DNA of 64,000 bases. Source: a virus. Each line of letters opens with the position of its first letter. Positions within the stretch are counted from its first letter, which is position 1. The stretch is from IMG/VR virus record IMGVR_UViG_3300022821_000014, positions 26,968-90,967 of that record; one strand, written 5' to 3'. The position numbers and the translations under genes were made by a program. The notes under the pieces were generated by a model that was not told the DNA's origin, did no database searches, and worked only from the letters and a program-made list of their open reading frames with translations. Positions 66-60,896 of this stretch are shown here, in pieces.

Positions 66-161
66 TTACTGGTCGAAAGTGTCGAAGTAGACTGTTGGTT
101 CTTGGGTCTCCACAAGTTCATCCATGACTTGCTCAACCAATAGTTCGATTAGCTTTTTCAT
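66..161 (-). CDS. 31-aa ORF consisting mainly of the shared N-terminal tag
   Basis: Begins MKKLIELLVEQVMDELVE and runs 31 codons to TAA. It is little more than the amphipathic tag found at the start of many proteins in this window. Its ATG overlaps the stop of the preceding 372-aa gene (ATGA), so it is probably translationally coupled. It may be a tag-only peptide or the remnant of a larger tagged gene. Function unknown; nothing recognisable follows to the window edge. Confidence 0.45.
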   Translation of the reverse strand: MKKLIELLVEQVMDELVETQEPTVYFDTFDQ

Positions 162-1276
162 CCGTATGTGTGTTTCACTTGCATCTTGGTCTGGATAGCT
201 TTAAACTTATTCAAGTCAATAAAGCGGACGTCGTAGACCTTGTCTAGACCATATTCAAATACCGTTTTGATTATGTCCCTTGAATTTGACATTTCCCTGG
301 TCCACGAATTACTGTCTATATCGATACCAAGCTTTGGCTCTTCACCCTTTGAGAGTTTGGCCTGAGCAGCCTCTGGGAAATCTGAGAGCGGCGCTTCGAC
401 TGCCACTAGTAGTCTTGAACCACGAGGAATTTTAAGAGTATCAGAGTCTACAACCCACTCCCCCTCTGTAGAATATGTGCGAACTGAATCAACGATAGCC
501 TTCTTCACGTGGGATGTCCACATGTCTAATGAGACATCCTTGAATTCCTGTCGGTGTGTTGCCTTATCAACTTCCATCTTGAGGTAGCCAGCAAATTCTT
601 TAGGAGTGTCAAGAGTAAACCCACCATCTCCATATGGCGCCAGAATTTTATACCCAGGTAAATACCCGTCTCGCATCGAGCGCCCCAAGTCTTCCAAGAC
701 TTTGTCTCCGTCTTTAATCATATTTTTGGCCAGGTGACTCCAAACGTTGTCAATAATACGGCGGTTTCCCCTTGGCGCCTCGTCTGCATTGAAAATGCGT
801 CGCAGATAAGCTAAATCATCCCGAGTCAGGTCGTACGGATCATCATAGCGTACTCGGTCAACACGGCCTTGATTATCATTCATCAGTTTCTTGGCATCCA
901 TCACTAAAACAGCGTTGCGTCCAATACCGAGCCAATGCATCAGGATTTTGCGATTGTCAGAAATGCCCGATACCCCATGGAGAACACCATCGGCGAGGTC
1001 TTCTACTTTGTCCGTAACCTTTTCGTTGATTGTTGTTACGAGCCAAAATACGTTTGGGTTGCCTGGTGTAGACTTCGCTTCATCTAAAACTTCTTTTACG
1101 CACTCACTAATGAGATTTTGCAGTTCTTGCTTTTTGTTCATTTCATGTCGACTGAGTTTTTTGAAGTGCGCTAAATTAAAACCTCTGAAGGCTTCCGTTA
1201 GTGGAGCCCGCTCAGCTTCAACAAACACCTCTCTAACACATTCGCTGATGAGGACTTGCAACTCCTGTTTCTTCAT
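158..1276 (-). CDS. Tagged protein of unknown function, paralogue of the next gene upstream
   Basis: 372 aa. The N-terminus carries two tags in tandem: residues 1-29 ending in LTEA, followed by RGFN, then a second Met (residue 46) opening MNKKQELQNLISECVKEV and ending in LDEA (64-67). This looks like a truncated kinase-type leader fused in frame to a complete tagged gene. The body (VFWLVTT..., GISD, WLGIGRNAVLV) is clearly paralogous to the 332-aa neighbour. The start ATG overlaps the neighbour's TGA. Residue 46 is an alternative start. No catalytic motif recognised; by context a candidate virion-packaged effector. Confidence 0.8.
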   Translation of the reverse strand: MKKQELQVLISECVREVFVEAERAPLTEAFRGFNLAHFKKLSRHEMNKKQELQNLISECVKEVLDEAKSTPGNPNVFWLVTTINEKVTDKVEDLADGVLHGVSGISDNRKILMHWLGIGRNAVLVMDAKKLMNDNQGRVDRVRYDDPYDLTRDDLAYLRRIFNADEAPRGNRRIIDNVWSHLAKNMIKDGDKVLEDLGRSMRDGYLPGYKILAPYGDGGFTLDTPKEFAGYLKMEVDKATHRQEFKDVSLDMWTSHVKKAIVDSVRTYSTEGEWVVDSDTLKIPRGSRLLVAVEAPLSDFPEAAQAKLSKGEEPKLGIDIDSNSWTREMSNSRDIIKTVFEYGLDKVYDVRFIDLNKFKAIQTKMQVKHTYG

Positions 1277-2271
1277 TGCTTTGATTTCCTTGTCCAGAAT
1301 TTTTTCTTGTATGCATCAAATTTCTTCATTGAGATGAACTTGAGTCGGTAGTGGTTTTCAAGCCCATACCGTTTAGCTAGCGCCATAATCTCCAGCGCTT
1401 GTTTCTCTTGTACCATCTGCGGTGTAGGCCAGCCATTTACATGCGATCTAGGGTCTGGGTCTTGAGCAAATTCCTCACGGGCCTCATCGGAAATTGTCTT
1501 GGGGTCCACGTCAACGCCAATAAACAATATGCTGTCCTTAGGGACTGACATAGCATCGTCTTTGACAAACCATTCACCTTCAGATCGGTAGGTGGCACCG
1601 ATGGCTTTGAGTGCCTTTTCCACGAGGGGCATCCAATCATCCAAAGTCAGCAACTCCGCATCCTTGACAATGTGTTTCTCATTGTCATTGGCAATCTTGA
1701 TTGTGGCTTTATGAATCCATGCTGTCAGATCTTTTAGGGTATTGATAGAAGGCTTCTCAGTTTTGTATGCCCTTCCATACCAACTTGGCGCCAAAGTGCC
1801 ATAGTCAATATTGTATAAGACTGTAGCCATAGGTTTACTGGCCTGCTCTGACTTCTTGCCCTGGGCCTTGACATAATCCATGACGGTTTGCATGAGGCCT
1901 GTCCAGTCGTAATCATTTTCTGGAGAGCGGTTGAAAAGCCTGAATAGGGCAGCCATCCCCTTTGAGACAAGGTAATGAGGATTGTCATACATCACACGAG
2001 AAACATTATTTACCTCAAGGAACTTCTTTGCTGGGATGACCAGGACGGCGTTTCGAGCTACTCCGAGCCATTGAACCACAATCTCCTTTGTATCGGAGAT
2101 TCCTTTGACCCCTACAAGCTCCCCCGTGGCCAGCTGCTCAAGGGTATCTTCAGAGTGTTCATCGACGGAAGTCACCATCCAAAAAACCTTGGGGATGTCC
2201 GCTTCGGTGTAAGAAGCTTCACGGAGTACCTTGCGGACCTCTTGTTCTATTAAATTATTTAGGGTGCTCAT
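1273..2271 (-). CDS. Tagged protein of unknown function (332 aa)
   Basis: Starts MSTLNNLIEQEVRKVLREAS, with the tag ending in LREA at residues 16-19. The rest shares VFWMVT, GISD, WLGVARNAVLV and RVMYDNP blocks with the adjacent 372-aa protein, so the two are tandem paralogues. An upstream in-frame start exists at 2301, but the ATG at 2271 is chosen because it places the tag at the N-terminus and lies just after the TAA of the upstream small ORF. Function unknown. Confidence 0.8.
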   Translation of the reverse strand: MSTLNNLIEQEVRKVLREASYTEADIPKVFWMVTSVDEHSEDTLEQLATGELVGVKGISDTKEIVVQWLGVARNAVLVIPAKKFLEVNNVSRVMYDNPHYLVSKGMAALFRLFNRSPENDYDWTGLMQTVMDYVKAQGKKSEQASKPMATVLYNIDYGTLAPSWYGRAYKTEKPSINTLKDLTAWIHKATIKIANDNEKHIVKDAELLTLDDWMPLVEKALKAIGATYRSEGEWFVKDDAMSVPKDSILFIGVDVDPKTISDEAREEFAQDPDPRSHVNGWPTPQMVQEKQALEIMALAKRYGLENHYRLKFISMKKFDAYKKKFWTRKSKQ

Positions 2272-2272
2272 G

Positions 2273-2443
2273 TTATCTGGTTCTCCCAACGCCACTGCCA
2301 AGGGGGTCTAGATGTGCATCTGCGTATGCGTACATCTCCTCGTAGGATTCAAGTTGCTGAAAGTGTCTGAAGTTAAACCCTCTAACGGATTCTGCCAGTG
2401 TCTTTCGCACTTGACTTTCAATTAATTTTTGCAAGGCGTACAT
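2273..2443 (-). pseudogene. Truncated copy of the kinase-like gene N-terminus (56 aa)
   Basis: Encodes MYALQKLIESQVRKTLAES, then RGFNFRHFQQL and ...LDPLGSGVGR before a TAA. It parallels the first ~60 residues of the next gene upstream (tag, LSES, RGFNMKRFKLL, LPRLGRGAAR) and stops at the point where the glycine-rich loop would continue. ATG overlaps the upstream TGA (TGATG). Either a decayed tandem duplicate or a short peptide carrying tag plus RGFN motif. Confidence 0.55.
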
Positions 2444-3147
2444 CAATCCATAAACCCTTCTTCGGTAAGCCCATAATCAGCAATAACTAGGCGTCCATCT
2501 GTTGTCATACCCCAGTGGTCATAACGCTCAATATCCTCTATGCCTGCTCTAGTGGCCTCAAAAGCCTTTTCAAACAGTTCAAGGTCCAAGTTATTCAAAT
2601 CACTCAATTCAATAGGCTTGTTTATGGTAAATTTAGTGAACTCATCTTTGTAGTGGTTGTTATGGTATTCAATGCCTTGAACCAATGCCTCGTCGAATTC
2701 TATATTCTGGTAAGCAAGCATAATCACCCATTCCAGAGCTACCTCGCTAACATGCATTTTACTCATCAGGTCAGCATTGTCAGCGATTATTTTGACACCT
2801 TCAGCTATCAACCACATATAATTTTCAGAATCGAAGTCATAAATCTTAGCCAGGAAGTCTTCAGCACCACTTTTCGTATAAGCTTCTACTTCGTTTCTTG
2901 TCTGTGTGTTGCCACGTTTACTGTGAACTATCTTCAGTATTTTGCCTGAGCCTAGTCCAAATACAATTCTTGCTGCGCCCCTGCCAAGGCGTGGAAGATG
3001 GTCTAGCGCATATTGGACTCTCTCTTCGGGAGTTTCTAAGAGCTTGAAACGCTTCATGTTAAAACCTCTCCAAGACTCAGACAAAGAAACACCTCGTAGT
3101 TCTTCAACCACAAGGCTTTCTACAAGTTGTTTTAGCGTGTTTGTCAC
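2443..3147 (-). CDS. Protein-kinase-fold protein with N-terminal tag
   Basis: 234 aa, GTG start. Order: tag (1-25, ending LSES), RGFNMKRF, then a kinase-like fold: glycine-rich LGRGAARIVF (54-63), candidate Lys72 in KILKI, Glu86 or Glu88 on the following helix, hinge-like WLIAEGV (112-118), HWG (211-213) and DYG (224-226) replacing HRD and DFG. Small phage kinase-like proteins with this HWG...DYG arrangement occur; substrate unknown. It heads the overlapping series 2443-66, 9 nt after the protease gene. If the tag is a packaging propeptide, this could be an injected kinase, analogous in role to T4 Alt. Confidence 0.7.
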   Translation of the reverse strand: MTNTLKQLVESLVVEELRGVSLSESWRGFNMKRFKLLETPEERVQYALDHLPRLGRGAARIVFGLGSGKILKIVHSKRGNTQTRNEVEAYTKSGAEDFLAKIYDFDSENYMWLIAEGVKIIADNADLMSKMHVSEVALEWVIMLAYQNIEFDEALVQGIEYHNNHYKDEFTKFTINKPIELSDLNNLDLELFEKAFEATRAGIEDIERYDHWGMTTDGRLVIADYGLTEEGFMD

Positions 3148-10464: not shown

Positions 10465-11028
10465 ATGGTTATGAAAAAAGGCTACCTAAAACAGCTAATC
10501 GAAATGGCCGTTTCGGCGGTCCTAAAAGAAATTGATAATAATGATGAATCTCATCTAGTGCCAGATGAACAAGGTGAATTTCATTCATCGGATGGTGACG
10601 ATTCTAGATTTTGGGGTAATCGTGGGGCAGGTATTTTACTGGTCGCTCAAGATACGGGCAAACTTCTTCTTGTCCTCCGTAGCGGTTATGTGAATGAACC
10701 AGGTACCTGGGGCGTCCCAGGCGGGAAGATAGATGATGAGGATGAATCCCCAAGTGTTGCGGCCAATAGAGAAGCTGAGGAGGAGCTAGGATACTCGGGC
10801 CCTATAGACCTCGTCCCTGCTCATGTCTTCAAATCAGGCAAGTTTCGATTCTACAACTTCATTGGTGTCGTACCAAATGAGTTTAAACCCACACTTGACT
10901 GGGAAAATGATGATGTAGGTTGGTTTTCAATTAACGACCTTCCTTCACCACTACATTTCGGTATTCAATCACTGCTAACAAACTCCGAAAATCAAATCCT
11001 AGACGTGTTCAACTCAGTAGGTCATTAG
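10465..11028 (+). CDS. NUDIX hydrolase with N-terminal tag
   Basis: 187 aa, the only plus-strand gene among minus-strand neighbours. The leader MKKGYLKQLIEMAVSAVLKEI resembles the shared tag but lacks a clear LxEA site. NUDIX box: GGKIDDEDESPSVAANREAEEELGYS, here cited as GGKIDDEDE...REAEEELG, with one extra residue in the Gly-Glu spacing. It hydrolyses a nucleoside diphosphate linked to X; substrate unknown. Start is ATG 10465 or 10471. The 3' end overlaps the convergent exonuclease gene by 15 nt. Confidence 0.85.
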   Translation: MVMKKGYLKQLIEMAVSAVLKEIDNNDESHLVPDEQGEFHSSDGDDSRFWGNRGAGILLVAQDTGKLLLVLRSGYVNEPGTWGVPGGKIDDEDESPSVAANREAEEELGYSGPIDLVPAHVFKSGKFRFYNFIGVVPNEFKPTLDWENDDVGWFSINDLPSPLHFGIQSLLTNSENQILDVFNSVGH

Positions 11029-21112: not shown

Positions 21113-21778
21113 TTAGCCTCCAACGGGGCCAGTGACACCTGCACGTGGCTCAGGGTTTTGTGGCAAGTTCTGAGAACTTACCTCATCTTCCGTTGGCCTA
21201 AGGTCGTAGCTTGTGTCAAGAATCTCCATCATTTCTTTTGCTGTTCTCTCATCGTAGTTACTCTGAACATACTTTTCAGCACGGTTCAGGATCAGTGTGT
21301 TTAGATCAATCAGTGATGGAAGGTTATTAGTAAGCCTCGCCACGCTTCTTGTAAAGTCTTGTAGGTTGATCTTAGGGGTGTTTATAACTGGTTGTTCGCC
21401 AGCACCTGCGTCTTCACCATCTGCGGCTGGGTCTTCTTCGCCTAGATCACCACCTAGATCACCACCTAGGTCACCACCCAAATCCCCTCCGAGGTCAAGG
21501 CCGCCTTCTGCGTCAGCTTCGTCGTCAACTGGTTCTTCATCTTGTTCAAGCAGGAAATCAACAAGTGAGTCAACATTTGCCGATTCGAACATTTCAGAGG
21601 TAGGAATAGCTTCACGTTCATATTGAACGAAGTACCGATCGATTGCTTGGTCCAACGAAAAAGCCTTGTCAGCCACACTTGCAAAATCCTGCATGGCTTC
21701 TGGGCGTTCTTGTGGTTGATATTCTTTTAGTAAGCTCTCAAGCAACACTTCAAGATTGTTTTTGTTTTTCTTGCGCAT
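21113..21778 (-). CDS. Tagged acidic protein with DLGG repeats
   Basis: 221 aa. Leader NNLEVLLESLLKEY resembles the tag. An acidic region contains four tandem DLGG units (residues ~93-114, encoded by 12-bp DNA repeats near 21440-21495), then a folded C-terminus (NLQDFTRSVARLTNNLPSLI). ATG overlaps the stop of the SOD-like gene. Function unknown; the low-complexity linker suggests a structural or scaffold-associated protein. Confidence 0.7.
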   Translation of the reverse strand: MRKKNKNNLEVLLESLLKEYQPQERPEAMQDFASVADKAFSLDQAIDRYFVQYEREAIPTSEMFESANVDSLVDFLLEQDEEPVDDEADAEGGLDLGGDLGGDLGGDLGGDLGEEDPAADGEDAGAGEQPVINTPKINLQDFTRSVARLTNNLPSLIDLNTLILNRAEKYVQSNYDERTAKEMMEILDTSYDLRPTEDEVSSQNLPQNPEPRAGVTGPVGG

Positions 21779-24012: not shown

Positions 24013-25530
24013 TTAGCCTACCTTTGTTTTAATCTTGAAGCTAATTTTGCCTTTGATGCCCGTAGTAAAGAAGTTCTTCCCTGAGTTAGCATAGATTTTA
24101 CCCTGGAAGTTTGGTGGGTATACCACATTAAAGTCTTTAAAGAAGGCATCGACCTTGTTCACACGACCCATTTTACTATTAACTTGGATGACAGAGCTAT
24201 GATTTAAAATTGCTCTAACAGCTGCATCAAATGAGTCTTCTCTGTTAATCTGAGCTGTTAGTCTCTTTGCAATTCCTGCGAGCAGATGAAAGAATGGGTG
24301 GTAGGTAGGTGGTGGGTCGATGATCTCCCAAGGAGTTTTGCCCCACATTTGCTTAGAAAGCTCAATGAGATTTGGTGTAGACAAGCTTGGGTGGTTTGCC
24401 TTCATTCCCTGAACAGCTTTGTCCCTACGCATCCTTCTCATGTTGACGACAACCTTCATATCCTGGTCGTCTACAATACCCATAATTTTAGCTGATTCCA
24501 AGACACCGAGGATTGCGTTGTTGTTGTTAATTGTTTGAATGATGCTGATTGGAAATCCATATTCGCTCAGGATATGCTGATAACCCTTAGGGTTCTTAGA
24601 TTGAATTTCGTTCAAAATAGAAAGAAGTGAAGTCACAGATGCTGCTGCACCTGTGCCAGCCTTAGAGCTAATTCCAACCTTCATTCCATTTGGCGCTTCC
24701 AACTCTGAATCTACAAGAGCATTGGTGGCTGACTGGAAGAAGCGAATTCTGCACTGAGCATATGAACTTTGTGGTAACAGTATCTTCTCGGAAGAAGCTC
24801 TGTCTCCTGTGGACACCCAATTGGACACGACGGATATTGGTGCAAGTATCTCGCCAAGATACTTGTTGTATGCCTTCGCATATTTGTTACCACCAGGCAA
24901 AACTGGGGACTGCCCGCCTTTTAAGGCGGCGTCTAATAGCATCTCAACGTGCTCTCCAGCTTCAGCAGGCAAGCCTCCAGATTTTACCATTAGTGCAGTG
25001 TTGGTCTTCGCAGTTGATACTACTTCTGCCACAGTACGGAGATTTTCATCCTGTATGAGGTCACTAGGCTTTAGCGCAAAACCTTCAAGGGCTGCGGCCC
25101 CCTTCTTGAGTTTCAGGCCCGTGTCTCTAGCAAACTTGGCCATCGTCCATTTGCCATATCCACCATTTTTTGTATTTTGGACATACCTGATATAACCACG
25201 GTAGGTGTTATCCTCTTTATTTAAGAGATAAATTAAGATGGCACCTTTTTTGTCAGCAGTGATTGAGTTAACTTCTATTAACTCAACATCTATTTCTTCA
25301 GTGTTCAGCTCCAGAAATGAATCGACAGCATCTGAAAGCTCTTCTGAGGAATCGAATGAATCAGATTCACCTGGGAACTTTCGGATGTTGGCAATTTCAT
25401 ATTCTGTTCCATCATTATCAACTAGCAATTGCCCAGTTTCTCTCGCAGCTACCCCACGGGCTTCGCTCAGGTATAGGCTGATTTCACTATCAATCGCTGA
25501 CTCAATTAAACGGAGAAGTTGTTTGGACAT
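24013..25530 (-). CDS. Large tagged protein of unknown function (505 aa)
   Basis: Leader MSKQLLRLIESAIDSEISLY then LSEA at residues 21-24, the clearest full-length tag with an LxEA site. The remainder (TEYEIANIRKFPGES..., GKWTMAKFARDTGLKLKKG) is not recognised. It starts 13 nt after the dnaE stop. If the tag is a capsid-targeting propeptide this would be one of the largest packaged proteins in the window. Confidence 0.75.
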   Translation of the reverse strand: MSKQLLRLIESAIDSEISLYLSEARGVAARETGQLLVDNDGTEYEIANIRKFPGESDSFDSSEELSDAVDSFLELNTEEIDVELIEVNSITADKKGAILIYLLNKEDNTYRGYIRYVQNTKNGGYGKWTMAKFARDTGLKLKKGAAALEGFALKPSDLIQDENLRTVAEVVSTAKTNTALMVKSGGLPAEAGEHVEMLLDAALKGGQSPVLPGGNKYAKAYNKYLGEILAPISVVSNWVSTGDRASSEKILLPQSSYAQCRIRFFQSATNALVDSELEAPNGMKVGISSKAGTGAAASVTSLLSILNEIQSKNPKGYQHILSEYGFPISIIQTINNNNAILGVLESAKIMGIVDDQDMKVVVNMRRMRRDKAVQGMKANHPSLSTPNLIELSKQMWGKTPWEIIDPPPTYHPFFHLLAGIAKRLTAQINREDSFDAAVRAILNHSSVIQVNSKMGRVNKVDAFFKDFNVVYPPNFQGKIYANSGKNFFTTGIKGKISFKIKTKVG

Positions 25531-43395: not shown

Positions 43396-44940
43396 ATGAA
43401 TAATCCAAAACTTACAATATTGATTGAGCGAATTGTTGACGAAGTCCTCAAAGAGGACCGAGCTGACATTTCTGCTGACTATGTTGCTTCTATAAAAAGC
43501 AAAGACCCAGAGCTGTATAATGACCTTATGCAGCATGCTGAGTTTGTCATCCAAGCTACGAAAAACAAGTATAAACCATCTGATAAACTTGTTACCATAC
43601 ATCGTCTGTTGAATTCGGATCCAAACCTTGACCCGAGATCTTCAGGAGATACACATGGTGTCCGCCTTTTTATCGACTACCTCGCACGTGAGGAAGGTAA
43701 GGATTCAGAGGACTCCAGAGAGTTTGCTGGCAAAGCTAAGCGATGGTATCAATCTACGATTGATGCTTTGCTCAAAAAAGTCTTCCAGGAATCAACTACT
43801 GAAAAGAAGCGTAAAGTGCTAAGTGAAGCAGTTAGAAAGCCTTTCAACATGGACCTGCCTAGGGATCTACTAACCTTGGCAGATATCTTCACCCTAAACA
43901 GCTTTCAGCTAGTTGTTGTGGGTGGAGCGGTTCGTGATGCTCTATTGGGTAAGGAACCAAAGGACTACGACGTTGCAACAAACGCACAGCCCGACGAGGT
44001 GTTGTCTATGTTGGCAGGGCACCCACAGTTCAAGACACTGGAAATCGGCAAATCCTTTGGTGTTATTAACGTAATCACTCCCGAAGGGAATGAATACGAA
44101 GTAGCTACCTATCGAAATGATATTGGAAGTGGACGTCGGCCTGATGCAGTTGAATTTACTACAATTGAGAACGACGTAAAGAGACGAGACCTTACAATCA
44201 ATGCACTCTTCTTTGACATTGCTGAGCAAGAGATCATCGATTATGTCGGCGGCATCAAAGATTTGGAGGCTGGGCGCATCCGAGCGGTTGGCGACGCCAA
44301 AGAAAGATTTGATGAGGACCCGCTTCGTATCCTACGTGCAATTAGGTTCTCAGCACGAATGGGTGCAGGGCTTGATGACAATACTGAAGAAGCTATCCGC
44401 AACGACAACACACTAAGAGGTGTCTCACCTGAGAGGGTTCGTGACGAGTTCCTCAAGTCAATCAAGACTGCCAGGTCAGTTCCAGCCCTGATGAGGCTTT
44501 ACGACAGTTTTGATCTCTGGGGACAAATCCTTCCAGGATTGAAAATCAACACGTGGTATCAAGAGACAAAAAACATTCCAGTGCTGCTTTCTTTACTTCT
44601 CCGTGAGAATCCTCCCAAGAGCCTGGGCAAAAAGATGAACAAGTTGAAATACAGTGTCGTTGAAACTCGTCAAATTATGTTTTTAACGATGTTCCAGGGT
44701 TTGACACCAGAAAACGCATATCAAATGAAGAAGCTGTGGAAATCAACCAGATTGACAGACCAGGATCTCGAAGAGTTCGCTAGGCTGAGTAACCACCCTA
44801 AAATGCAGCTTGTAAAGGCATTCAACCAGTACACACCTACGGTGGACGGGCAAGAACTGTTGGCACAGGGCTTCAAGGGTCGTGAGCTTGGACAGGAAAT
44901 TGAACGCAGAGAGATGGATCTGTTCAAAAGGCTTATCTAA
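43396..44940 (+). CDS. cca: CCA-adding tRNA nucleotidyltransferase with long N-terminal propeptide-like region
   Basis: 514 aa from ATG 43396. The catalytic domain starts near residue 145: VVVGGAVRDALLGKEPKDYD (metal-binding DxD), RRDLTINAL, EDPLRILRAIRFSARMG, then the helical tRNA-binding body. Residues 1-144 are extra: tag MNNPKLTILIERIVDEVLKE, a helical stretch, and VLSEAVRKPFN, whose LSE-A lies exactly before the catalytic domain. It adds or repairs 3' CCA; the phage tRNAs lack encoded CCA, so this enzyme matches the array. First plus-strand gene after the divergent switch. Confidence 0.92.
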   Translation: MNNPKLTILIERIVDEVLKEDRADISADYVASIKSKDPELYNDLMQHAEFVIQATKNKYKPSDKLVTIHRLLNSDPNLDPRSSGDTHGVRLFIDYLAREEGKDSEDSREFAGKAKRWYQSTIDALLKKVFQESTTEKKRKVLSEAVRKPFNMDLPRDLLTLADIFTLNSFQLVVVGGAVRDALLGKEPKDYDVATNAQPDEVLSMLAGHPQFKTLEIGKSFGVINVITPEGNEYEVATYRNDIGSGRRPDAVEFTTIENDVKRRDLTINALFFDIAEQEIIDYVGGIKDLEAGRIRAVGDAKERFDEDPLRILRAIRFSARMGAGLDDNTEEAIRNDNTLRGVSPERVRDEFLKSIKTARSVPALMRLYDSFDLWGQILPGLKINTWYQETKNIPVLLSLLLRENPPKSLGKKMNKLKYSVVETRQIMFLTMFQGLTPENAYQMKKLWKSTRLTDQDLEEFARLSNHPKMQLVKAFNQYTPTVDGQELLAQGFKGRELGQEIERREMDLFKRLI

Positions 44941-45174: not shown

Positions 45175-45264
45175 GGAGGGTAATGCGGCATGGGTGCTGT
45201 CACTGCCTCGAAAGCAGAGGGCTCGTCAGAGATGGCGAGTGGGGTTCAACTCCTCTGCCCTCCT
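45175..45264 (+). tRNA. tRNA-Ser (CGA)
   Basis: Acceptor GGAGGGT/GCCCTCC pairs over 7 bp, anticodon arm CTGC-CTCGAAA-GCAG, long variable arm GGCTCG...CGAGT, T arm with GGTTCAAC. No encoded CCA. Isolated from the main array, ~10 kb upstream of it but directly behind the CCA-adding enzyme operon. Confidence 0.8.
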
Positions 45265-51670: not shown

Positions 51671-52567
51671 ATGAGCAATAAGAAGATTGTCAAAAAGGGT
51701 GTCACTCAACTACAGGATCGTATTCGCACGATTGTAAAGGAAGAGGTTCGTTCAGCTCTCCGTGAAGAGAATGTCAGTGTTTGGTTCACGAAGTTGGGTG
51801 GCAAGCAATCGGCCTTTGCAGGTTGGCTGATGCGACAGTACTTCAACCCTGATAAGCACTCAGGCAAGGTTTGGTATGATGACTCCGTGACGAAGGACAA
51901 TGTCCTCGAATACGTAACCAAGATGGCAGCGAGCGGAGTTTTCCCACAGACCCCAAAGTCTCTCTATAGCCTGTTTAAGCTCAAGGGACAGCTTCAGACG
52001 TCTATGGGACAGCTGGACAAGTCTGGCGAGCTGGATGCAATGTCTGATTACCTTGACGATGAAGAGGATGAGGATGAAAAGGCTACCTACCAGACTGGCG
52101 AGGTATCTCTCAAGGACATCGGTAAGGAACTTGGAGGAATCACACCCACCATGGTCAACAAGCTTGCTGCGAGCGGGATGGACAAGTTTCGCTCGTTGAC
52201 TCAAGGACAAGCACTTGACAATGTTGACGGTGCCGCTCTGGAAGAGTTTTTGAAGAAGATTCAAGATGCCCGAGCAGACGCAGCAGACGAGTTTGTTCAG
52301 AGGCTTGCAGATGCAACAACCATTGGTGAATTCATCAAGAGCCTCCAGAAGGGCCAAATTCTTTCGCCCACTGATCTCAAGCTGGTCACCAAGAATGAGC
52401 TGGAAGGCCTCCGTATGCTCCAGAAGCGTGACCCAGAAGTGGCCAAGCAGATGCTCATGCAGGACATTCAGGACGACAACAACCTTTTTAAGTCATACCA
52501 GGCTATGGTTTCCAAGAAGGTCTTCCCAGGGAAGAAGCGTGGTCGTCCGAAAAAGATCAAGAACTAG
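51671..52567 (+). CDS. Tagged protein with sigma-region-4-like helix-turn-helix
   Basis: 298 aa. Residues ~13-34 (LQDRIRTIVKEEVRSALREE) are tag-like. A middle acidic linker precedes VSLKDIGKELGGITPTMVNK and LAASGMDKFRSL, which resembles sigma70 region 4 ([27 protein letters not shown]). Basic tail KKRGRPKKIKN (AT-hook-like GRPKK). It may be a transcription factor carried in or made for late transcription. No region 2 is recognised. Confidence 0.65.
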   Translation: MSNKKIVKKGVTQLQDRIRTIVKEEVRSALREENVSVWFTKLGGKQSAFAGWLMRQYFNPDKHSGKVWYDDSVTKDNVLEYVTKMAASGVFPQTPKSLYSLFKLKGQLQTSMGQLDKSGELDAMSDYLDDEEDEDEKATYQTGEVSLKDIGKELGGITPTMVNKLAASGMDKFRSLTQGQALDNVDGAALEEFLKKIQDARADAADEFVQRLADATTIGEFIKSLQKGQILSPTDLKLVTKNELEGLRMLQKRDPEVAKQMLMQDIQDDNNLFKSYQAMVSKKVFPGKKRGRPKKIKN

Positions 52568-53426: not shown

Positions 53427-53963
53427 ATGACCAAGAAGAACAAGCCAAATAAAAACCTCCGTAAGGAATTCGAGCTACATAAGGAGCGTCGTTCACGTCA
53501 CTTAAAGAACCTCATAGAAGAGTCTATTATCAACGTTCTGGCCGAACAGGATGCAGCAGCAGCCCAGCAAGCTGCAATGACGGCCGAAACCCCACCCCCA
53601 GTAGCTACCCCTGAGAACCAAGCTCAAGGTGCTCAAGACAACATGGTCAAAGAGCAATACACGGTGGATGGCATGATTGACGAGTTAAATGCTATTCGAG
53701 GAGGCAGGTCCTTTTCCGATCCTGAGGTCTACGGCAAACTTGTGACCTTCTTCAAAACCCTAGGTGAAGAGCAAAAAAACACTTTAGATACTTTGCTAAC
53801 GCAGATCGCTGAGCTTATCACAGGAGTTGATGATGCACCAGCACCGCAACAAGACCAGAGCGCAGGTGCTCAACCGCCAAATCCTGGAGGTGCTCCGCAA
53901 CAGAACGCACCAATGCCTGGGGCACAACAAGCAGCAGGCGCCGCCGGCGTCGGAGTAGCCTAG
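53427..53963 (+). CDS. Tagged low-complexity protein
   Basis: 178 aa, GGAGGAAGG ribosome-binding site. Residues ~25-45 (RHLKNLIEESIINVLAEQ) match the tag, ending LAEQ. A helical core (YTVDGMIDELNAIRGG..., YGKLVTFFKTLGEEQKNTLD) is flanked by Ala/Gln/Pro-rich low-complexity segments. Likely a capsid-associated or packaged protein by tag logic. Confidence 0.65.
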   Translation: MTKKNKPNKNLRKEFELHKERRSRHLKNLIEESIINVLAEQDAAAAQQAAMTAETPPPVATPENQAQGAQDNMVKEQYTVDGMIDELNAIRGGRSFSDPEVYGKLVTFFKTLGEEQKNTLDTLLTQIAELITGVDDAPAPQQDQSAGAQPPNPGGAPQQNAPMPGAQQAAGAAGVGVA

Positions 53964-55175: not shown

Positions 55176-55246
55176 GCAGCATTGGTGTAGTGGAAACATC
55201 TTTGGCTTCCAACCAAAGGTCACGAGTTCGAACCTCGTATGCTGCT
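55176..55246 (+). tRNA. tRNA-Gly (TCC)
   Basis: Acceptor GCAGCAT/ATGCTGC, anticodon arm TTTGG-CTTCCAA-CCAAA, T arm ACGAG-TTCGAAC-CTCGT. No encoded CCA. The preceding 150 nt hold hairpins (CATCTGC...GCAGATG; TCTATACT...AGTATAGA) but no gene. Confidence 0.9.
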
Positions 55247-55320
55247 TTTTTCTCAGGCCCTCCCGAGGTAACTTTCGGGTCCTGCGTGAACAAGAGATTG
55301 GTTGTCTTTTCTGGGAAAAT

Positions 55321-55393
55321 GGGATGTTAGCATCAAGGAGATGCAACGGGTTCCTCGACCCTATCGAGGCAGGTTCAATTCCTGTGCATCCCA
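55321..55393 (+). tRNA. tRNA-like gene with defective anticodon arm (CCT or CTC)
   Basis: Acceptor GGGATGT/GCATCCC, D arm GCAT/ATGC and T arm GCAGG-TTCAATT-CCTGT are sound. The anticodon arm reads ACGGG-TTCCTCG-ACCCT, with two mismatches, or GGG/CCC around an 8-nt loop. Anticodon therefore ambiguous: CCT (Arg) by spacing, CTC (Glu) if the loop is enlarged. Confidence 0.5.
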
Positions 55394-55485
55394 CTTACAA
55401 ATGACTAACTTGGAAGGTGGATGAAGTTCACTGCTAGTTTCATCACTGTGGGGTGAGGACAGTGAGTCGCAACTCTCCCCAATTT

Positions 55486-55559
55486 GGGTTCTTAGTGTAA
55501 CTGGATTAGCACTCCAGATTTGTTAATCAACAGTCTGGGTTCAAATCCCAGGGAACCCA
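55486..55559 (+). tRNA. tRNA-like gene with non-pairing anticodon stem (GTT or TGT)
   Basis: Acceptor GGGTTCT/GGAACCC, D arm GTGT/GCAC and T arm CTGGG-TTCAAAT-CCCAG are intact. Between them CCAGATTTGTTAATCAACAG gives no 5-bp anticodon stem in any register. The 5' and 3' halves look as if they came from different tRNAs. Confidence 0.45.
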
Positions 55560-55612
55560 CTGGAGCGAAAGCCCGTGCACGAAGGCTTGACAGTCGGAGA
55601 GACGACATTTCT

Positions 55613-55683
55613 AGGTCACTGGTGTAATGTAGCATGACGATCTCCAAAATCGTTCGGTCTGAGTTCAAGTCTTAGGTGGCCTG
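55613..55683 (+). tRNA. tRNA-Trp (CCA)
   Basis: Acceptor AGGTCAC/GTGGCCT, anticodon arm ACGAT-CTCCAAA-ATCGT, T arm CTGAG-TTCAAGT-CTTAG. No encoded CCA tail. Confidence 0.9.
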
Positions 55684-55745
55684 TAAATCCTAGAACTGAA
55701 GGTTCCTGCCCTGGGCAGCGAAAGCTGGTTGGTAGCCTTCAAAAT

Positions 55746-55818
55746 GTCTTCGACGCCGACAGGAACGGCAGCTCGCCTTCTAAGCGAGTTTTTGAGGGTT
55801 CGAGTCCTTCCGAAGACG
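55746..55818 (+). tRNA. tRNA-Arg (TCT)
   Basis: Acceptor GTCTTCG/CGAAGAC, anticodon arm CTCGC-CTTCTAA-GCGAG, T arm with GAGGGTTCGAGTCCTTC. Reads AGA/AGG-type codons. Confidence 0.9.
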
Positions 55819-55864
55819 CTGAGAGTGTAAGACTGCCGATTATGGCAGCCCCTGCACTCGATTA

Positions 55865-55937
55865 GGGGCATTGGTCCAGTGGTTGAGGACGCTAGGCTGT
55901 CTACTTAGAAGCACGGGTTCGATTCCCGTATGCCCCG
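55865..55937 (+). tRNA. tRNA-Asp (GTC)
   Basis: Acceptor GGGGCAT/ATGCCCC, anticodon arm CTAGG-CTGTCTA-CTTAG, T arm ACGGG-TTCGATT-CCCGT. U at position 37 is unusual. One of two apparently intact tRNA-Asp genes in the array. Confidence 0.85.
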
Positions 55938-55966
55938 CTAGTTTCCGTTCAGGAAACAATAAATGA

Positions 55967-56034
55967 GCCGTGTAGCCTGAGGGCCTAGGAGAGTCGCTAT
56001 CTCTTAGAAGTTCGAACCCCATAGGGCAGCGGCA
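55967..56034 (+). tRNA. Degenerate tRNA-like sequence, apparent anticodon CGC
   Basis: Anticodon-type hairpin GGAGA-GTCGCTA-TCTCT is good, but acceptor ends (GCCGTGT/CAGCGGC) pair only partly and no T stem forms around TTCGAAC. Preceded by hairpin GTTTCC-GTTCA-GGAAAC (55941-55957). Probably a tRNA remnant. Confidence 0.3.
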
Positions 56035-56037
56035 TAT

Positions 56038-56111
56038 AGGATCGTAGCATAACTGGTAGTGCGCCTCCCTGTCACGGAGCGAGTGTGCGAGTTCAAATCT
56101 CGTCGGTCCTG
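56038..56111 (+). tRNA. tRNA-Asp (GTC), second gene
   Basis: Acceptor AGGATCG/CGGTCCT, D arm GCAT/GTGC, anticodon arm CCTCC-CTGTCAC-GGAGC (one mismatch), T arm GCGAG-TTCAAAT-CTCGT. Confidence 0.85.
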
Positions 56112-56256
56112 TCAAGTTCTATTTCTAGAAATATGTGTATAACCTCGATAAGTGAGGGAACTGTTTTTTCTATCCTCCTACTTAGAAGAGTAACGGCAAA
56201 TGTTTCTACCGAAAAAGTTGTTTTGCCGTGCTATTTACTGTCAAGGGTAAAAGGTT

Positions 56257-56547
56257 ATGACAAGAATCACACTTAGAACATTGAGAGCCATGATCCGTGA
56301 AGCGGTTCGTGAAGAAATGAAGAACGGCCTAAACGAGGCAGGCTTCATGGGCGCCGGCGGTAAAATGCAAGGCGCTCAACGGGGTGGAGTAGGTAGTCGT
56401 CAGGCACTTTCCAAAACTGGTGGAATGACAGGTTATTCCTCCATGAATTTGGATGAGTTGGTTGCAGCGATGAAATCAGCCTCCGAGGCAGATAAACCAC
56501 ACATCAAAAAGGCTATCACAGCTCAGCTCAAGGCAGCTGGCTGGTGA
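56257..56547 (+). CDS. Small tagged protein
   Basis: 96 aa. Leader MTRITLRTLRAMIREAVREE then LNEA at residues 25-28: a textbook example of the tag with an LxEA site. A Gly-rich linker and a helical C-terminus (NLDELVAAMKSASEADKPH) follow. Sits inside the tRNA array with its own downstream hairpin terminator. After cleavage at LNE-A a ~69-aa peptide would remain. Confidence 0.7.
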   Translation: MTRITLRTLRAMIREAVREEMKNGLNEAGFMGAGGKMQGAQRGGVGSRQALSKTGGMTGYSSMNLDELVAAMKSASEADKPHIKKAITAQLKAAGW

Positions 56548-56553
56548 GCAAAT

Positions 56554-56573
56554 AGCTGGTATTACCAGCTTTT
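56554..56573 (+). terminator. Hairpin terminator after the 96-aa gene
   Basis: AGCTGGT-ATT-ACCAGCT followed by TTT; 7 nt after the stop codon. The T tract is short, so termination may be weak. Confidence 0.6.
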
Positions 56574-56595
56574 AGAGAAAAAAACTCTAAATAGG

Positions 56596-56624
56596 TTCAA
56601 AAGACCTGATTATAGTGTTATACT
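56596..56624 (+). promoter_or_regulatory. Promoter TTCAAA-N17-TATACT
   Basis: TTCAAA 56596-56601, 17-nt spacer, TATACT 56619-56624; 44 nt before the 72-aa gene. Confidence 0.7.
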
Positions 56625-56667
56625 CTTAGGTAGGAAGTCAAACAGACCTTTTACCTAAGAGTACGAC

Positions 56668-56886
56668 ATGGAATACCAGAACTTTTCGATCAATACTGCT
56701 GAAGATCTTGTCAAGGGATTTGCCATTGGCATCCGAGACAAGGTCATTGACCTCACTGAGGTTCGAGATATCGTATTGGCGAGTACGGATGATGAGCGAC
56801 TTACCCAAGTTGTTCTTGAGAAGGTCCAGCTGGAGTTGGAGTGCATGGAGCACTTTGCTCTCAGGGTAGCTGCTACGGCAGCCTGA
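56668..56886 (+). CDS. Unknown small acidic protein
   Basis: 72 aa, MEYQNFSINTAEDLVKGFAI..., helical with LTEVRDIVLASTDDERL. Own promoter, located inside the tRNA array. Function unknown. Confidence 0.6.
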   Translation: MEYQNFSINTAEDLVKGFAIGIRDKVIDLTEVRDIVLASTDDERLTQVVLEKVQLELECMEHFALRVAATAA

Positions 56887-56896
56887 AAAAAAGCTG

Positions 56897-56925
56897 TTCA
56901 CAATCATTTATGTCTGTCCTAAACT
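56897..56925 (+). promoter_or_regulatory. Promoter TTCACA-N17-TAAACT
   Basis: TTCACA 56897-56902, 17-nt spacer, TAAACT 56920-56925, followed by ACTTAGG as at two other promoters; 18 nt before tRNA-Ala. Confidence 0.7.
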
Positions 56926-56942
56926 ACTTAGGTAGACAACAT

Positions 56943-57014
56943 GGGGCCTTAGTGCTAACGGGAACACACCTGCTTTGCACGCAGGAATTAAGGGTTCGAT
57001 TCCCTTAGGCTCCA
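56943..57014 (+). tRNA. tRNA-Ala (TGC)
   Basis: Acceptor GGGGCCT/AGGCTCC, anticodon arm CCTGC-TTTGCAC-GCAGG, T arm AAGGG-TTCGATT-CCCTT. No encoded CCA. Confidence 0.92.
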
Positions 57015-57206
57015 TTATGAACTGCATAACCAACTGTAGTCAAGGAACGTCACTGTAGATTCAAGACGTGACTGCTCGGAGAGTCGAGCAAAACTTCGGT
57101 GGTGTCAGGCTTCAAGATACTCCACCTAAAACAGACTGGTAGTGAAGTAGGTACGTTCCACCACAAGGGGCAGACAAGTGGTAGGAAATGAAGACCTGCC
57201 CGTTCT

Positions 57207-57279
57207 CGGTCGTTGGTGTCAGCGGCAGCACACTGGGCTCTTAACCCACGAAGCAGAGGTTCGAATCCTCTACGACCGA
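57207..57279 (+). tRNA. tRNA-Lys (CTT)
   Basis: Acceptor CGGTCGT/ACGACCG, anticodon arm CTGGG-CTCTTAA-CCCAC, T arm AGAGG-TTCGAAT-CCTCT. The ~190 nt upstream hold only structured spacer. Confidence 0.88.
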
Positions 57280-57287
57280 CTAAACTT

Positions 57288-57359
57288 GGGACGTTAGCAT
57301 CAAGGCGATGCACTGGCCTTTTAAGCCATCTGAGCTGGGTTCGATTCCCAGGCGCCCCA
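57288..57359 (+). tRNA. tRNA-Lys (TTT)
   Basis: Anticodon arm CTGGC-CTTTTAA-GCCAT, D arm GCAT/ATGC, T arm CTGGG-TTCGATT-CCCAG. Acceptor GGGACGT/GCGCCCC has one mismatch (A4-C69). An HNH gene begins 3 nt after its end. Confidence 0.85.
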
Positions 57360-57361
57360 CT

Positions 57362-57823
57362 ATGAAAAAGTGTTCTTCTTGCAAAGTATCCAAAACGAGA
57401 AATGAGTTCAATAAAAACTCTTCTAAGTGTGATAACCTTCAAAGCATGTGCCGTGCTTGCAATAAGAAAACTGCTAAAAATTATTATGCTAAAAACAAGT
57501 CGCATCACCGATTAGTCTGTAGCCAGATTAAAAAAAGGCGCATCAGAGAAAATCAAAATAAACTTTTCGAGGTGCTACGCAGAAGTGAGTGTGTTGATTG
57601 CGCTGAAAGAGATCCGTTGGTATTAGAATTTGACCATGTCCAAAAAAAGGACCACGGAATATCAGAGTTGCTTTGTGGTGGGTATAGCTGGCACCGAATT
57701 TTTGCTGAAATGAAAAAATGTGAAATACGCTGTGCAAACTGCCACAACAAGAAAACACACCAAGCAAATAATTCGTATCGTTGGAGGCTTTTAGTTGAAC
57801 TAAAATCTTGTACGTCTCACTAA
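57362..57823 (+). CDS. HNH endonuclease directly behind tRNA-Lys
   Basis: 153 aa. Zinc finger CSSCKVSKTRNEF...CRACNKKT, then HNH core ECVDCAERDPLVLEFDHVQ ... IRCANCHNKKT. The ATG is 2 nt after the tRNA-Lys discriminator base, with no room for a ribosome-binding site outside the tRNA. Resembles the HNH at 61636. A free-standing homing nuclease, probably targeting tRNA arrays of related phages. Confidence 0.85.
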   Translation: MKKCSSCKVSKTRNEFNKNSSKCDNLQSMCRACNKKTAKNYYAKNKSHHRLVCSQIKKRRIRENQNKLFEVLRRSECVDCAERDPLVLEFDHVQKKDHGISELLCGGYSWHRIFAEMKKCEIRCANCHNKKTHQANNSYRWRLLVELKSCTSH

Positions 57824-57834
57824 ACGAGGTTCAC

Positions 57835-58080
57835 ATGTTGATTCAAGTATGGAAAGATAGTAATGGACTAGGTGTTATGCCGAAGCCAAATGCTGATGCG
57901 CTCTGGGAGAGCGGTCACATGTGTATCAACGCAGTCCTCGTTCGTGAATATGAAGCAAAAACCTGGTACGAAGCGATGTGTAAGCATCATGAGTTTCAAG
58001 GTTGGGGCGAGTACAATCCTCCTCGGCTAATGAATGGTGACATCGACCCTGTGGTTTTACAGCCACTAGATGATGTGTGA
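57835..58080 (+). CDS. Unknown small protein
   Basis: 81 aa from ATG 57835. MLIQVWKDSNGLGVMPKPNA..., HMCINAVLVREYEAKTWYEA. Function unknown. The 188-nt gap that follows holds hairpins (GCAAG-TTCATT-GCTTGC) but no tRNA I can fold. Confidence 0.6.
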   Translation: MLIQVWKDSNGLGVMPKPNADALWESGHMCINAVLVREYEAKTWYEAMCKHHEFQGWGEYNPPRLMNGDIDPVVLQPLDDV

Positions 58081-58268
58081 TAATAATGTCCTATAGTAGA
58101 CTGGTTTAGCCATCTCGATCAATCGATGATAAATTATGAACATAGTTCGGATGAGTACGACTAACAAGGGTTGCAAGTTCATTGCTTGCCTGGGGGCCTC
58201 CAAACGCCTCTGGTAGTTTAATGAAAACACTTGTAAATTTTCTTCTTACTCCAGCAGAGTAAGAATAT

Positions 58269-58342
58269 GGCGCAGTCTTCTAATGGCTTAGGAACCTTGG
58301 CTTTCATCCAAGACAATGTGGGTTCGAGTCCCATCTGCGTCA
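58269..58342 (+). tRNA. tRNA-Glu (TTC)
   Basis: Acceptor GGCGCAG/CTGCGTC, anticodon arm CTTGG-CTTTCAT-CCAAG, T arm GTGGG-TTCGAGT-CCCAT. Confidence 0.9.
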
Positions 58343-58348
58343 CTCAAT

Positions 58349-58423
58349 GGTCCTGTCGTCTACTATGGTTTAGGACACCAACCTCTCAAGTTGGAGAACC
58401 GAGTTCGAACCTCGGTGGGATCA
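58349..58423 (+). tRNA. tRNA-Glu (CTC)
   Basis: Acceptor GGTCCTG/TGGGATC (with wobbles), anticodon arm CCAAC-CTCTCAA-GTTGG, T arm CCGAG-TTCGAAC-CTCGG. Confidence 0.88.
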
Positions 58424-58485
58424 TTCGAATAGGTTCTAGTTTCAGCGACTAAATTAAAATAGCACGCCAGCTATGCCTAAAACAT

Positions 58486-58571
58486 GGCCGAGTGGGGGAA
58501 TTGGCAGACCCGCAGGATTAAGGATCCTGTTCCCATAAAAAGGAGTGCAGGTTCGATGCCTGTCTCGGCTA
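58486..58571 (+). tRNA. tRNA-Leu (AAG)
   Basis: Class II tRNA: acceptor GGCCGAG/CTCGGCT, anticodon arm CAGGA-TTAAGGA-TCCTG, long variable arm, T arm GCAGG-TTCGATG-CCTGT. Confidence 0.85.
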
Positions 58572-58746
58572 CTATTTTGGTGCGAGCTTCAAGAAAGTCC
58601 CTACGAGTACTGAAGCCCTGGTTTAGGGAGCAGCAGTTATGTCACTTGCCAAATCCGTGAGTGGAGAATGACGGCATCAACAATTTCAAGAGGTTCTCCC
58701 GAGTCAGTGGGGATTAAAGCGGAGATTCGGCGAACGCCTCTTATTT

Positions 58747-58829
58747 GCTCGAATGGTGGAATGGCAGACACACACGCCTGAGTAGCGTGACCACGAAAGT
58801 GGGTAAGAGTTCGAATCTCTCTTCGAGTA
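58747..58829 (+). tRNA. tRNA-Leu (GAG)
   Basis: Class II: acceptor GCTCGAA/TTCGAGT, anticodon arm CACGC-CTGAGTA-GCGTG, variable arm CCAC-GAAA-GTGG, T loop TTCGAAT. Confidence 0.87.
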
Positions 58830-58834
58830 CTAAA

Positions 58835-58908
58835 AGAGAAGATGGTTCGCAGGGTGACGGCGACTAATAATCGCTGGTGAAACGACGCCGTACATCTTGA
58901 AAATCTCT
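58835..58908 (+). repeat. Structured spacer element, copy 1
   Basis: Starts AGAGAAGATGGTTCGC and closes GTACATCTTGAAAATCTCT; the ends pair (AGAGA/TCTCT and AGATG/CATCT) around a variable hairpin. Three more copies at 60598, 61037 and 61500. Likely a structured RNA or processing signal between tRNAs. Confidence 0.7.
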
Positions 58909-58919
58909 TTCTTTGATAT

Positions 58920-58960
58920 CGTGGGTTGGAAAAGTAGCAATTCGCTAGGCTCATAACCTA
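58920..58960 (+). tRNA. Truncated tRNA-fMet-like gene (CAT), 5' two-thirds only
   Basis: CGTGGGT TG GAA...TTC G CTAGG-CTCATAA-CCTAG matches an initiator-type tRNA up to the end of the anticodon stem. Then the sequence switches abruptly into the 104-bp repeat that encodes the tail of the HNH gene. No 3' half is present. Confidence 0.7.
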
Positions 58961-59062
58961 GGGATACTCAAAACAAAAACTTTAGATAGAACTTTCCCAA
59001 ATTGGAAAGATTTCTATTTCCCGATGGGGGCAATGGCGCAATGGCGTGCCAGCGGACTGTAA
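58959..59062 (+). repeat. 104-bp perfect direct repeat, copy 1
   Basis: Identical to 59603-59706. It contains the last ~34 codons of the HNH gene plus the 5' half of tRNA-Tyr, through anticodon GTA and A37. The upstream junction is fused to the truncated tRNA-fMet. Confidence 0.95.
59026..59062 (+). tRNA. tRNA-Tyr 5' half (GTA), interrupted by HNH element
   Basis: GGGGGCA...GCGGA-CTGTAA is identical to the start of the intact tRNA-Tyr at 59670, then breaks after position 37 and runs into AATGTTACACAGACATT (a hairpin) and the HNH gene. Confidence 0.85.
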
Positions 59063-59106
59063 AATGTTACACAGACATTTGAAGTTCGGTTACTCATACT
59101 AAAAGT

Positions 59107-59706
59107 ATGAAGTGTTTGGAGTGTTCAAACCCTTTGGAAACAAAGGATGCAAAGAAGTTTTGTTCCCGTTCTTGTTCGGCAACGTTCAATAACAGGAATC
59201 GAGTTCTGACTTCTAAAACCAAGTCTAAGATCAGGGTCGGCGTTCTTGGTTTCCATGCTGAACTTCCAAGAAGTCAGTACGATTATGTGTGTGACAAATG
59301 TTTGGCTGCATTCACTTCGTATGTTTATATGAGGAAAAGTCGATCGGTTAGATGCAAATCTTGCAAAAGGGTGGTGAAGAGAGCAACTAAGGATGCACGG
59401 TCGATTTTGGAGTTATCAAAACGAACAATAACCAAGTTGCTTAAAAGAGCTAACTTTGGTTGCGTTATGTGTGGCTGGGATCGCACGACGTTGGACATCC
59501 ATCACATTTTGCATAGAAGTAAAGGTGGAACCGATGCACACCAAAACTTGATAGCATTATGTCCGAATTGCCATCGTTTGGCACATGAGGGCAAATATGA
59601 CTTAGGGATACTCAAAACAAAAACTTTAGATAGAACTTTCCCAAATTGGAAAGATTTCTATTTCCCGATGGGGGCAATGGCGCAATGGCGTGCCAGCGGA
59701 CTGTAA
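59107..59706 (+). CDS. HNH endonuclease nested in tRNA-Tyr
   Basis: 199 aa. Three zinc knuckles (CLECSNPL...FCSRSC; CDKCLAAF...CKSC), then HNH GCVMCGWDRTTLDIHHILHR...NLIALCPNCHRLAH. ATG lies in the 3' strand of hairpin CATAC-TAAAA-GTATG. The last residues (GAMAQWRASGL) are encoded by the 5' half of the downstream tRNA-Tyr, and the stop TAA overlaps the anticodon GTA plus A37. The gene therefore carries its own replacement tRNA 5' half. Confidence 0.88.
   Translation: MKCLECSNPLETKDAKKFCSRSCSATFNNRNRVLTSKTKSKIRVGVLGFHAELPRSQYDYVCDKCLAAFTSYVYMRKSRSVRCKSCKRVVKRATKDARSILELSKRTITKLLKRANFGCVMCGWDRTTLDIHHILHRSKGGTDAHQNLIALCPNCHRLAHEGKYDLGILKTKTLDRTFPNWKDFYFPMGAMAQWRASGL
59603..59706 (+). repeat. 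104-bp perfect direct repeat, copy 2
   Basis: Second copy, 644 bp from the first; it ends exactly at position 37 of the intact tRNA-Tyr. The pair marks a 644-bp tandem unit consistent with insertion of the HNH element into the anticodon loop. Confidence 0.95.
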
Positions 59707-59750
59707 CTCCGTGGCCTTCGGGCGGGTAGGTTCGATTCCTACTGTCCCCA
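59670..59750 (+). tRNA. tRNA-Tyr (GTA)
   Basis: Acceptor GGGGGCA/TGTCCCC, anticodon arm GCGGA-CTGTAAC-TCCGT, long variable arm (GGCCTTCGGGCGG region), T arm GTAGG-TTCGATT-CCTAC. Its 5' half overlaps the HNH coding sequence. Confidence 0.92.
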
Positions 59751-59954
59751 CTTAGAAGAGAACAGATATACATAAGTCAAGTAGTCTGTGCTAGAGCGGT
59801 ACTTGTAAATGTTAGTAGCCCGCCATCTTCGCATAATCTATCTCTGTTGAAGCGTATTACATCTCCAGTCACAATATTGGGGTGTAGGAAGTGGGGCTCG
59901 TAAGTGACTACGAGGAAGCAGTGCCCAATCGCTGCTACGGTTTAACAGGATTTT

Positions 59955-59985
59955 GGGGTCTTAGCTCACCTGGGAGAGCGTCTGT
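59955..59985 (+). tRNA. tRNA 5' half interrupted by HNH element
   Basis: GGGGTCT TA GCTC-ACCTGGGA-GAGC G TCTG: acceptor strand, D arm and start of the anticodon stem, then CGACATAC...GTATG leading into the HNH gene. Identity cannot be read because the anticodon is lost. The 204 nt before it (59751-59954) hold hairpins such as CTCGTA-AGTGAC-TACGAG and no gene. Confidence 0.6.
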
Positions 59986-60001
59986 CGACATACTTATCGG
60001 T

Positions 60002-60594: not shown

Positions 60595-60597
60595 CTA

Positions 60598-60662: not shown

Positions 60663-60683
60663 TTCATGGGTTCATGGTCTAAT

Positions 60684-60795: not shown

Positions 60796-60896
60796 CTAAC
60801 TGTTCTGACGCTGGCAACGTAAATGCTGAAGCTGGGTTAGCTACCAGTGGATAAGGGCCCTTGAATGGGTAAGCTATATAATCCATCAATAGTAAG

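Follow-up and report, generated by a model that had tools for sequence, protein, structure and literature searches.

An N-terminally extended CCA-adding enzyme in a tRNA-bearing phage

The window analysed here is a 64,000-nucleotide stretch of a 91-kb IMG/VR virus record. At 43396-44940 it carries an uninterrupted open reading frame, and an identical copy of the gene occurs in another IMG/VR contig (L005). The features at this locus are the following.

43396..44940 (+): CCA-adding enzyme precursor, 514 aa, ATG start (uninterrupted ORF; Pfam and PHROG matches)
43396..43827 (+): N-terminal extension, residues 1-144, candidate propeptide, predicted helical with low model confidence (no homologue; codon score; model)
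43405..43455 (+): tag-like N-terminal helix, residues 4-20 (PKLTILIERIVDEVLKE), candidate capsid-targeting sequence (left-out motif score; own-genome recurrence)
43780..43794 (+): second candidate cleavage site, V-F-Q-E132/S (sequence)
43819..43830 (+): candidate prohead-protease site, L142-S-E144/A145, at the folded-domain border, 11 residues ahead of conserved Pro155 (sequence, relatives, model)
43828..44937 (+): predicted mature CCA-adding enzyme, residues 145-514, about 42 kDa, with GGAVRD, DxD, RRD and EDxxR (Pfam, motif alignment, structure comparison)
45175..45264 (+): tRNA-Ser(CGA), no encoded CCA, 235 bases downstream of the CCA gene

The protein matches Pfam PolyA_pol over residues 173-296 (1.1e-34) and PolyA_pol_RNAbd over residues 326-382 (1.2e-7), and its PHROG match is tRNA nucleotidyltransferase. 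The GG[A]VRD, DxD, RRD and EDxxR motifs of the class II CCA-adding head domain are all present and are invariant across the alignment with relatives. Judged by its sequence, the product is a class II CCA-adding enzyme (tRNA nucleotidyltransferase). The closest solved structures are bacterial and human CCA-adding enzymes; those of Planococcus (6ibp/6q52) and B. stearothermophilus (1miv) have the same motifs and catalytic fold (sequence E-values as low as 1e-34; TM-score, normalised to target length, 0.72-0.73) but lack the 144-residue N-terminal extension. The first-pass annotation had described the gene in these terms, as a CCA-adding enzyme with a front piece of about 144 residues running to an LSE-A site and the catalytic GGAVRDALL some 30 residues beyond. 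The ORF, the Pfam matches and the residues L142-S143-E144/A145 agree with this description, and GGAVRD, which begins at residue 176, lies 32 residues past E144. The region ahead of the site had also been called foreign to ordinary CCA enzymes, and indeed no PolyA_pol match falls within those 144 residues.

The extension residues before LSE-A match no Pfam family, and a 148-aa N-terminal query found no homologue in phage records, IMG/VR (save the identical gene copy) or GTDB genomes. Its codon score is 0.283 bits/codon, compared with 0.288 for the CCA part, and the other two forward frames score negative. Since the extension has the codon bias of the enzyme, it is coding. AlphaFold models the extension as helices of low confidence; residues 132-142 have pLDDT <50, the confident fold begins at residue 145/146, and blocks from 151 onward are mostly >90.

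The true start is uncertain, with candidate codons at 43390 (TTG), 43396 (ATG) and 43528 (ATG). A start further downstream (ATG 43528 or a GTG at codon 141) would make the long propeptide partly or wholly an artefact; the ORF caller used in this analysis favoured 43528, and the CCA enzymes of relatives bear short tags. However, the stretch beginning at 43396 has the same codon usage as the enzyme, and the helix at residues 4-20 fits the phage's own tag motif described below, and we consider a downstream start highly improbable.

None of the 26 predicted tRNAs of the window encodes CCA, as the earlier reading had said of the phage tRNAs, and these tRNAs must therefore at some point receive CCA from an enzyme of the host or the phage. 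This lack does not fix when, or by which enzyme, CCA is added. All but one of the tRNA genes (25/26) lie within 55176-63367 on a single strand, and many have C then T past the discriminator base, not CCA.

Candidate cleavage sites in the extension

An [LI]xE site between tag and folded cargo is present as sequence at LSE144/A145, on the fold border. Further hydrophobic-x-Glu (hxE) sites fall inside the extension, namely LKE20/D, ARE99/E and FQE132/S, and a 144-residue propeptide is therefore one option among several. Thus the extension and the LSE-A position reported at first pass are borne out, while the exact propeptide length given there is less fixed.

Across the proteins of this phage, 2.8% of all 17-residue windows contain [LI]xE[AS]. 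LSE-A by itself is therefore weak evidence for processing, and we dropped it as proof. A second argument had likened VRKPFN, beyond the site, to the RGFN that follows LxE(A/S) in the kinase-like proteins. The equivalent stretches in related CCA enzymes are VRKKFNMHLP, IRRPFEMKLP and RVKFNMQLP, and some of these enzymes are untagged. A common post-cleavage motif RGFN/VRKPFN was thus ruled out: VRKPFN belongs to the edge of the CCA family, and its likeness to RGFN is probably fortuitous, because homology between CCA enzymes accounts for the stretch.

The N-terminal tag recurs elsewhere in the proteome of the phage

A tag matrix was built from 12 segments of this phage's other proteins, picked by eye, with the CCA enzyme left out. 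The helix of the window enzyme scores 11.9 on this matrix, a value equalled by 0.06% of internal 40-mers, and the matrix places the CCA enzyme of the syntenic phage G006 3rd of 423 N-termini. The tag-bearing proteins of the window are these.

158..1276 (-): tag-bearing protein (MKKQELQVLISECVREVFVEA...LTEAFRGFN), tag twice in frame
1273..2301 (-): tag-bearing protein (MSTLNNLIEQEVRKVLREA)
2443..3147 (-): tag-bearing protein (LKQLVESLVVEELRGVSLSESWRGFN), PHROG 4301
10465..11028 (+): tag-bearing NUDIX hydrolase (YLKQLIEMAVSAVLKE), domain match
21113..21778 (-): tag-bearing protein (NLEVLLESLLKEY), G006 homologue tagged as well (VGDLKRILREEF)
24013..25530 (-): tag-bearing protein (LLRLIESAIDSEISLYLSEARG)
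51671..52567 (+): tag-bearing protein (DRIRTIVKEEVRSALREE)
53427..53963 (+): tag-bearing protein (HLKNLIEESIINVLAEQ)
56257..56547 (+): tag-bearing small protein (TLRAMIREAVREEMKNGLNEA)

In the first of these, MKKQELQVLISECVREVFVEA and MNKKQELQNLISECVKEVLDEA stand ~45 residues apart, as if two tagged genes had fused.

Recurrence was assessed by scoring each CCA tag against the N-termini and internal tiles of its own genome, and was significant at N-termini in 5/9 genomes tested. In this phage the CCA tag is shared by 5/117 N-termini vs 1/539 internal tiles (p=9e-4). The corresponding counts are 25/920 vs 14/3713 in LR745206 (p=1.8e-9), 7/73 vs 0/344 in G005 (p=3.9e-6), 13/378 vs 8/1869 in G021 (p=4e-6) and 7/250 vs 4/1283 in G028 (p=5e-4). 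Recurrence was not significant in G002, G004 and G006 (p 0.10-0.27) and borderline in G033 (p=0.05), genomes whose contig is small or in which scoring with one sequence has little power. Genes adjoining the CCA gene carry the same tag in LR745206, L010 and G004.

A single universal tag motif was ruled out. The matrix of this phage works for G006 and fails on LR745206, G021, G002 and T4, and tags are therefore lineage-specific.

Two further tagged proteins were seen in LR745206. One (L083:8260-9573, minus strand) joins a T4-like tag, MKLKKYKQFIKES, to a 2'-5' RNA ligase/Acb1-like domain and an RNase T exonuclease domain, and the other (L078:827-1435, minus strand) joins MILDFLSFINES to a SMODS-associated NUDIX domain (4e-30).

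Short tags and hxE sites on related CCA enzymes

The relatives examined are huge phages and IMG/VR contigs, many of them contig fragments with ORFs called in this analysis. Their CCA enzymes often begin with a short tag that has an hxE end shortly ahead of a conserved proline (P155 here), and in many of them the short tag directly precedes the cargo. Examples are given below.

G006: MTLKSLITEAVRAHLFE/Q (enzyme 55% identical to that of the window)
LR745206 (635 kb): MILKKYKMFLE/S
L010: MKIKSFYEFVNE/S
L188: MQLKTFTEFQMVNE/A
L172: MRRLKLYEEFSLIQE/A
L144: MKTQIKQILREGLTMEE/R

Among 53 non-redundant CCA relatives, 42 have an hxE no more than 20 residues away from the proline, and in 38/53 the hxE glutamate stands 10-13 residues ahead of it. 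Conservation of this glutamate may partly come from the enzyme itself, because some untagged relatives have it too (e.g. L180, MEKRIKHHIDLP). The CCA gene of G006 (L011, ~5965-7501) is interrupted by an insertion that resembles an endonuclease remnant and is probably an intron.

The CCA enzymes of the isolates GAP32, XacN1, 2.275.O and phiM12 are phage-encoded like that of the window but have nothing ahead of the catalytic core. No tag was recognised on the CCA enzymes of GAP32, KVP40, XacN1, ME3, 2.275.O, phiM12, phage G, CcrPW, ScoobyDoobyDoo, RpAliso, Desulfovibrio 7757 or Bambus, the CCA genes of KVP40 and Desulfovibrio 7757 being unannotated. Because these isolate enzymes show no tag, the tag is a trait of one enzyme clade and not of every phage CCA enzyme.

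These untagged enzymes would suit another explanation, in which the extension is an accessory domain kept on a cytoplasmic enzyme made during infection and LSE-A arose by chance. The site alone is at a chance level of ~3%, and the tRNA genes of the same genome would be enough to explain a late CCA enzyme. Against this stand the recurrence of the tag in its own genome, the left-out motif match in G006, the position of the site at the fold border and the hxE of relatives, and we regard such an accessory domain as unlikely.

Head-assembly genes and comparison with T4 and giant phages

G006 has 32 ORFs in common with the 91-kb record, many in the same order, and the terminases are 49% identical. 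The genes of G006 include one for an S77 prohead protease (7.9e-26) and one for a gp23 capsid protein. The stretch ...QAAQVLKE/SNSLSTGGG of this capsid protein corresponds to the T4 gp23 cut position FLTE/AEIGG, and by analogy the protein is presumably cut at LKE/S. An S77 protease match exceeded the cut-off in 7/14 records in one search and 15/27 in another. No prohead protease was found in the 91-kb record itself, which is a fragment, and we infer the cognate protease of this phage from the syntenic G006. Upstream of the window, a gp23-like fragment lies among tail genes (G000:C1:17726-17896, minus strand; 57% identical to the G006 major capsid protein over 42 aa); G006 has extra gp23 fragments as well (16752-17807).

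The head operon of G006 contains small tagged proteins (MKLTSKLLKKIIEEEV, MSRQQLKAIVKECLVEILQE and MSNKITLPRLRKIIAEEL), and tagged proteins flank its protease and terminase. The head operon of LR745206 likewise contains tagged proteins. As the tag is found on diverse enzymes, it could in principle address proteins elsewhere, to a replication compartment, a membrane or a degradation system. The location of tagged proteins within both head operons, the form that the tag shares with the T4 capsid-targeting sequence (CTS) and the suitability of hxE for the protease all speak for the head instead, and make another address very unlikely.

In T4, the head-protein N-termini read MKTYQEFIAE/A (ipII and ipIII), MAKINELLRE/S (gp24) and MLKEQLIAE/A (gp22). 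The first 10 residues of IPIII are a CTS sufficient for packaging, and cutting of this tag is governed by residues 8 and 10 (PMC9026906). The T4 internal proteins IPI-III, which are cut by gp21, resemble the tagged CCA enzymes in having an N-terminal tag with a hydrophobic-x-E/A or S end and a cargo unrelated to the tag, and relatives of the window phage encode a T4-type protease and gp23. The window protein differs in that its presumed cargo is a CCA-adding enzyme, its hxE follows 144 residues and its tag is lineage-dependent. T4 CTSs are 10-19 residues long and T4 propeptides 7-65. Because its extension of 144 residues departs from a short tag of 10-19 residues directly ahead of the cargo, we do not class the window protein as a T4 internal protein, though it would resemble one in its proposed working.

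The length of the extension falls within the range of SPN3US propeptides (111-254 residues), which have several internal cuts and mostly get cut up and exit the head (PMC10052503). SPN3US/phiKZ head proteins thus resemble the window extension in their long propeptides with several internal sites. The SPN3US motif is A-x-E, unlike the hxE here, and a CCA enzyme is absent from the SPN3US substrates described in the accessible text of that paper. T4 Alt, a packaged ADP-ribosyltransferase, has been proposed to be injected and to act ahead of phage gene expression, as we propose here, but its propeptide has 7 residues, and the window enzyme acts on the tRNA 3' end.

CCA-enzyme precursors with an additional domain

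Several related precursors carry more than a tag ahead of the CCA fold. L141 has the tag MTLLRECVKEMLVES, ~140 aa extra and then LLRE/A; L165 has the tag MNKLTEWLTKPFLDE, an AAA_33/Zeta_toxin kinase domain, TIDE/A, the CCA fold and a C-terminal HD domain. In L117 a weak tRNA-ligase phosphodiesterase match precedes LLRE/A and the CCA fold, and in L150 an extra domain lies between the tag or N-terminus and the hxE. L147 contains a DUF5661 without a clear hxE site.

The order of tag, extra domain, hxE and CCA fold in L141, L165, L150 and L117 raises the idea of a polyprotein with two cargoes, in which the window tag would deliver residues ~21-132 and the CCA enzyme as separate polypeptides, split at FQE132/LSE144. 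We think this improbable for the window protein, whose segment matches no family and is modelled with low confidence; the long propeptides of SPN3US are for the most part cut up and lost from the head. More broadly, it is tempting to speculate, as a tentative idea that we hold to be doubtful, that many large T4-type phages inject a tRNA-repair kit of capsid-tagged CCA enzymes, some joined to a phosphodiesterase- or kinase-like domain and split by the protease, that might reverse tRNA damage from host defences ahead of the translation of any phage gene.

A model for delivery of the CCA-adding enzyme with the phage head

We propose a mechanistic model. Computation shows the enzyme identity, the tag recurrence, the hxE position and the protease and capsid genes of relatives, and we infer that the protein is addressed to the head, cut, packaged, injected and active in early tRNA repair. 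The N-terminal helix would bind to the scaffolding core while the prohead grows, like the T4 capsid-targeting sequence. A T4-type (S77) prohead protease would cut after hydrophobic-x-Glu, finally at LSE144/A145, and the ~42-kDa CCA enzyme would be left inside the head. The enzyme may then enter the host along with the phage DNA, and would add or repair CCA at the 3' ends of host and phage tRNAs ahead of phage protein synthesis. A capsid-targeted, protease-released and injected CCA-adding enzyme is the most likely reading of this gene, and we judge it to be probably correct. The virion delivery already suggested by the first-pass annotation receives indirect support from the tags in many phages, the recurrence in 5/9 genomes, the T4-type genes of relatives and the hxE position in 38/53 enzymes; the VRKPFN/RGFN argument lends it none.

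In the accessible text of two papers, phage CCA enzymes are described for tRNA maturation or repair, without packaging (PMC7824862, PMC3622015), and the usual view is that these enzymes and tRNA-repair genes act once phage expression has begun. In the open-access literature we found no report of a capsid-targeted CCA enzyme and no paper pairing "capsid targeting sequence" with "nucleotidyltransferase". What would be new here is the CCA enzyme as cargo, together with the long precursor; the mechanism itself is already known. Were such enzymes carried in the capsid, they could let phages oppose tRNA-cleaving defences from time zero. The tag may also serve as a sequence rule (short, with an hxE end and recurring within the genome) that predicts injected proteins of large uncultured T4-type phages. 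Because nearly all tagged proteins are unannotated, such a rule would yield directly testable injected-effector candidates.

Other insertions in the window

Two further genes of the window bear apparent insertions. A DNA polymerase III alpha gene (25543-27873, minus strand) has an apparent intein C-terminal junction (VHNSA), and a ribonucleotide reductase gene (4988-8833, minus strand) has an HNH endonuclease insertion.
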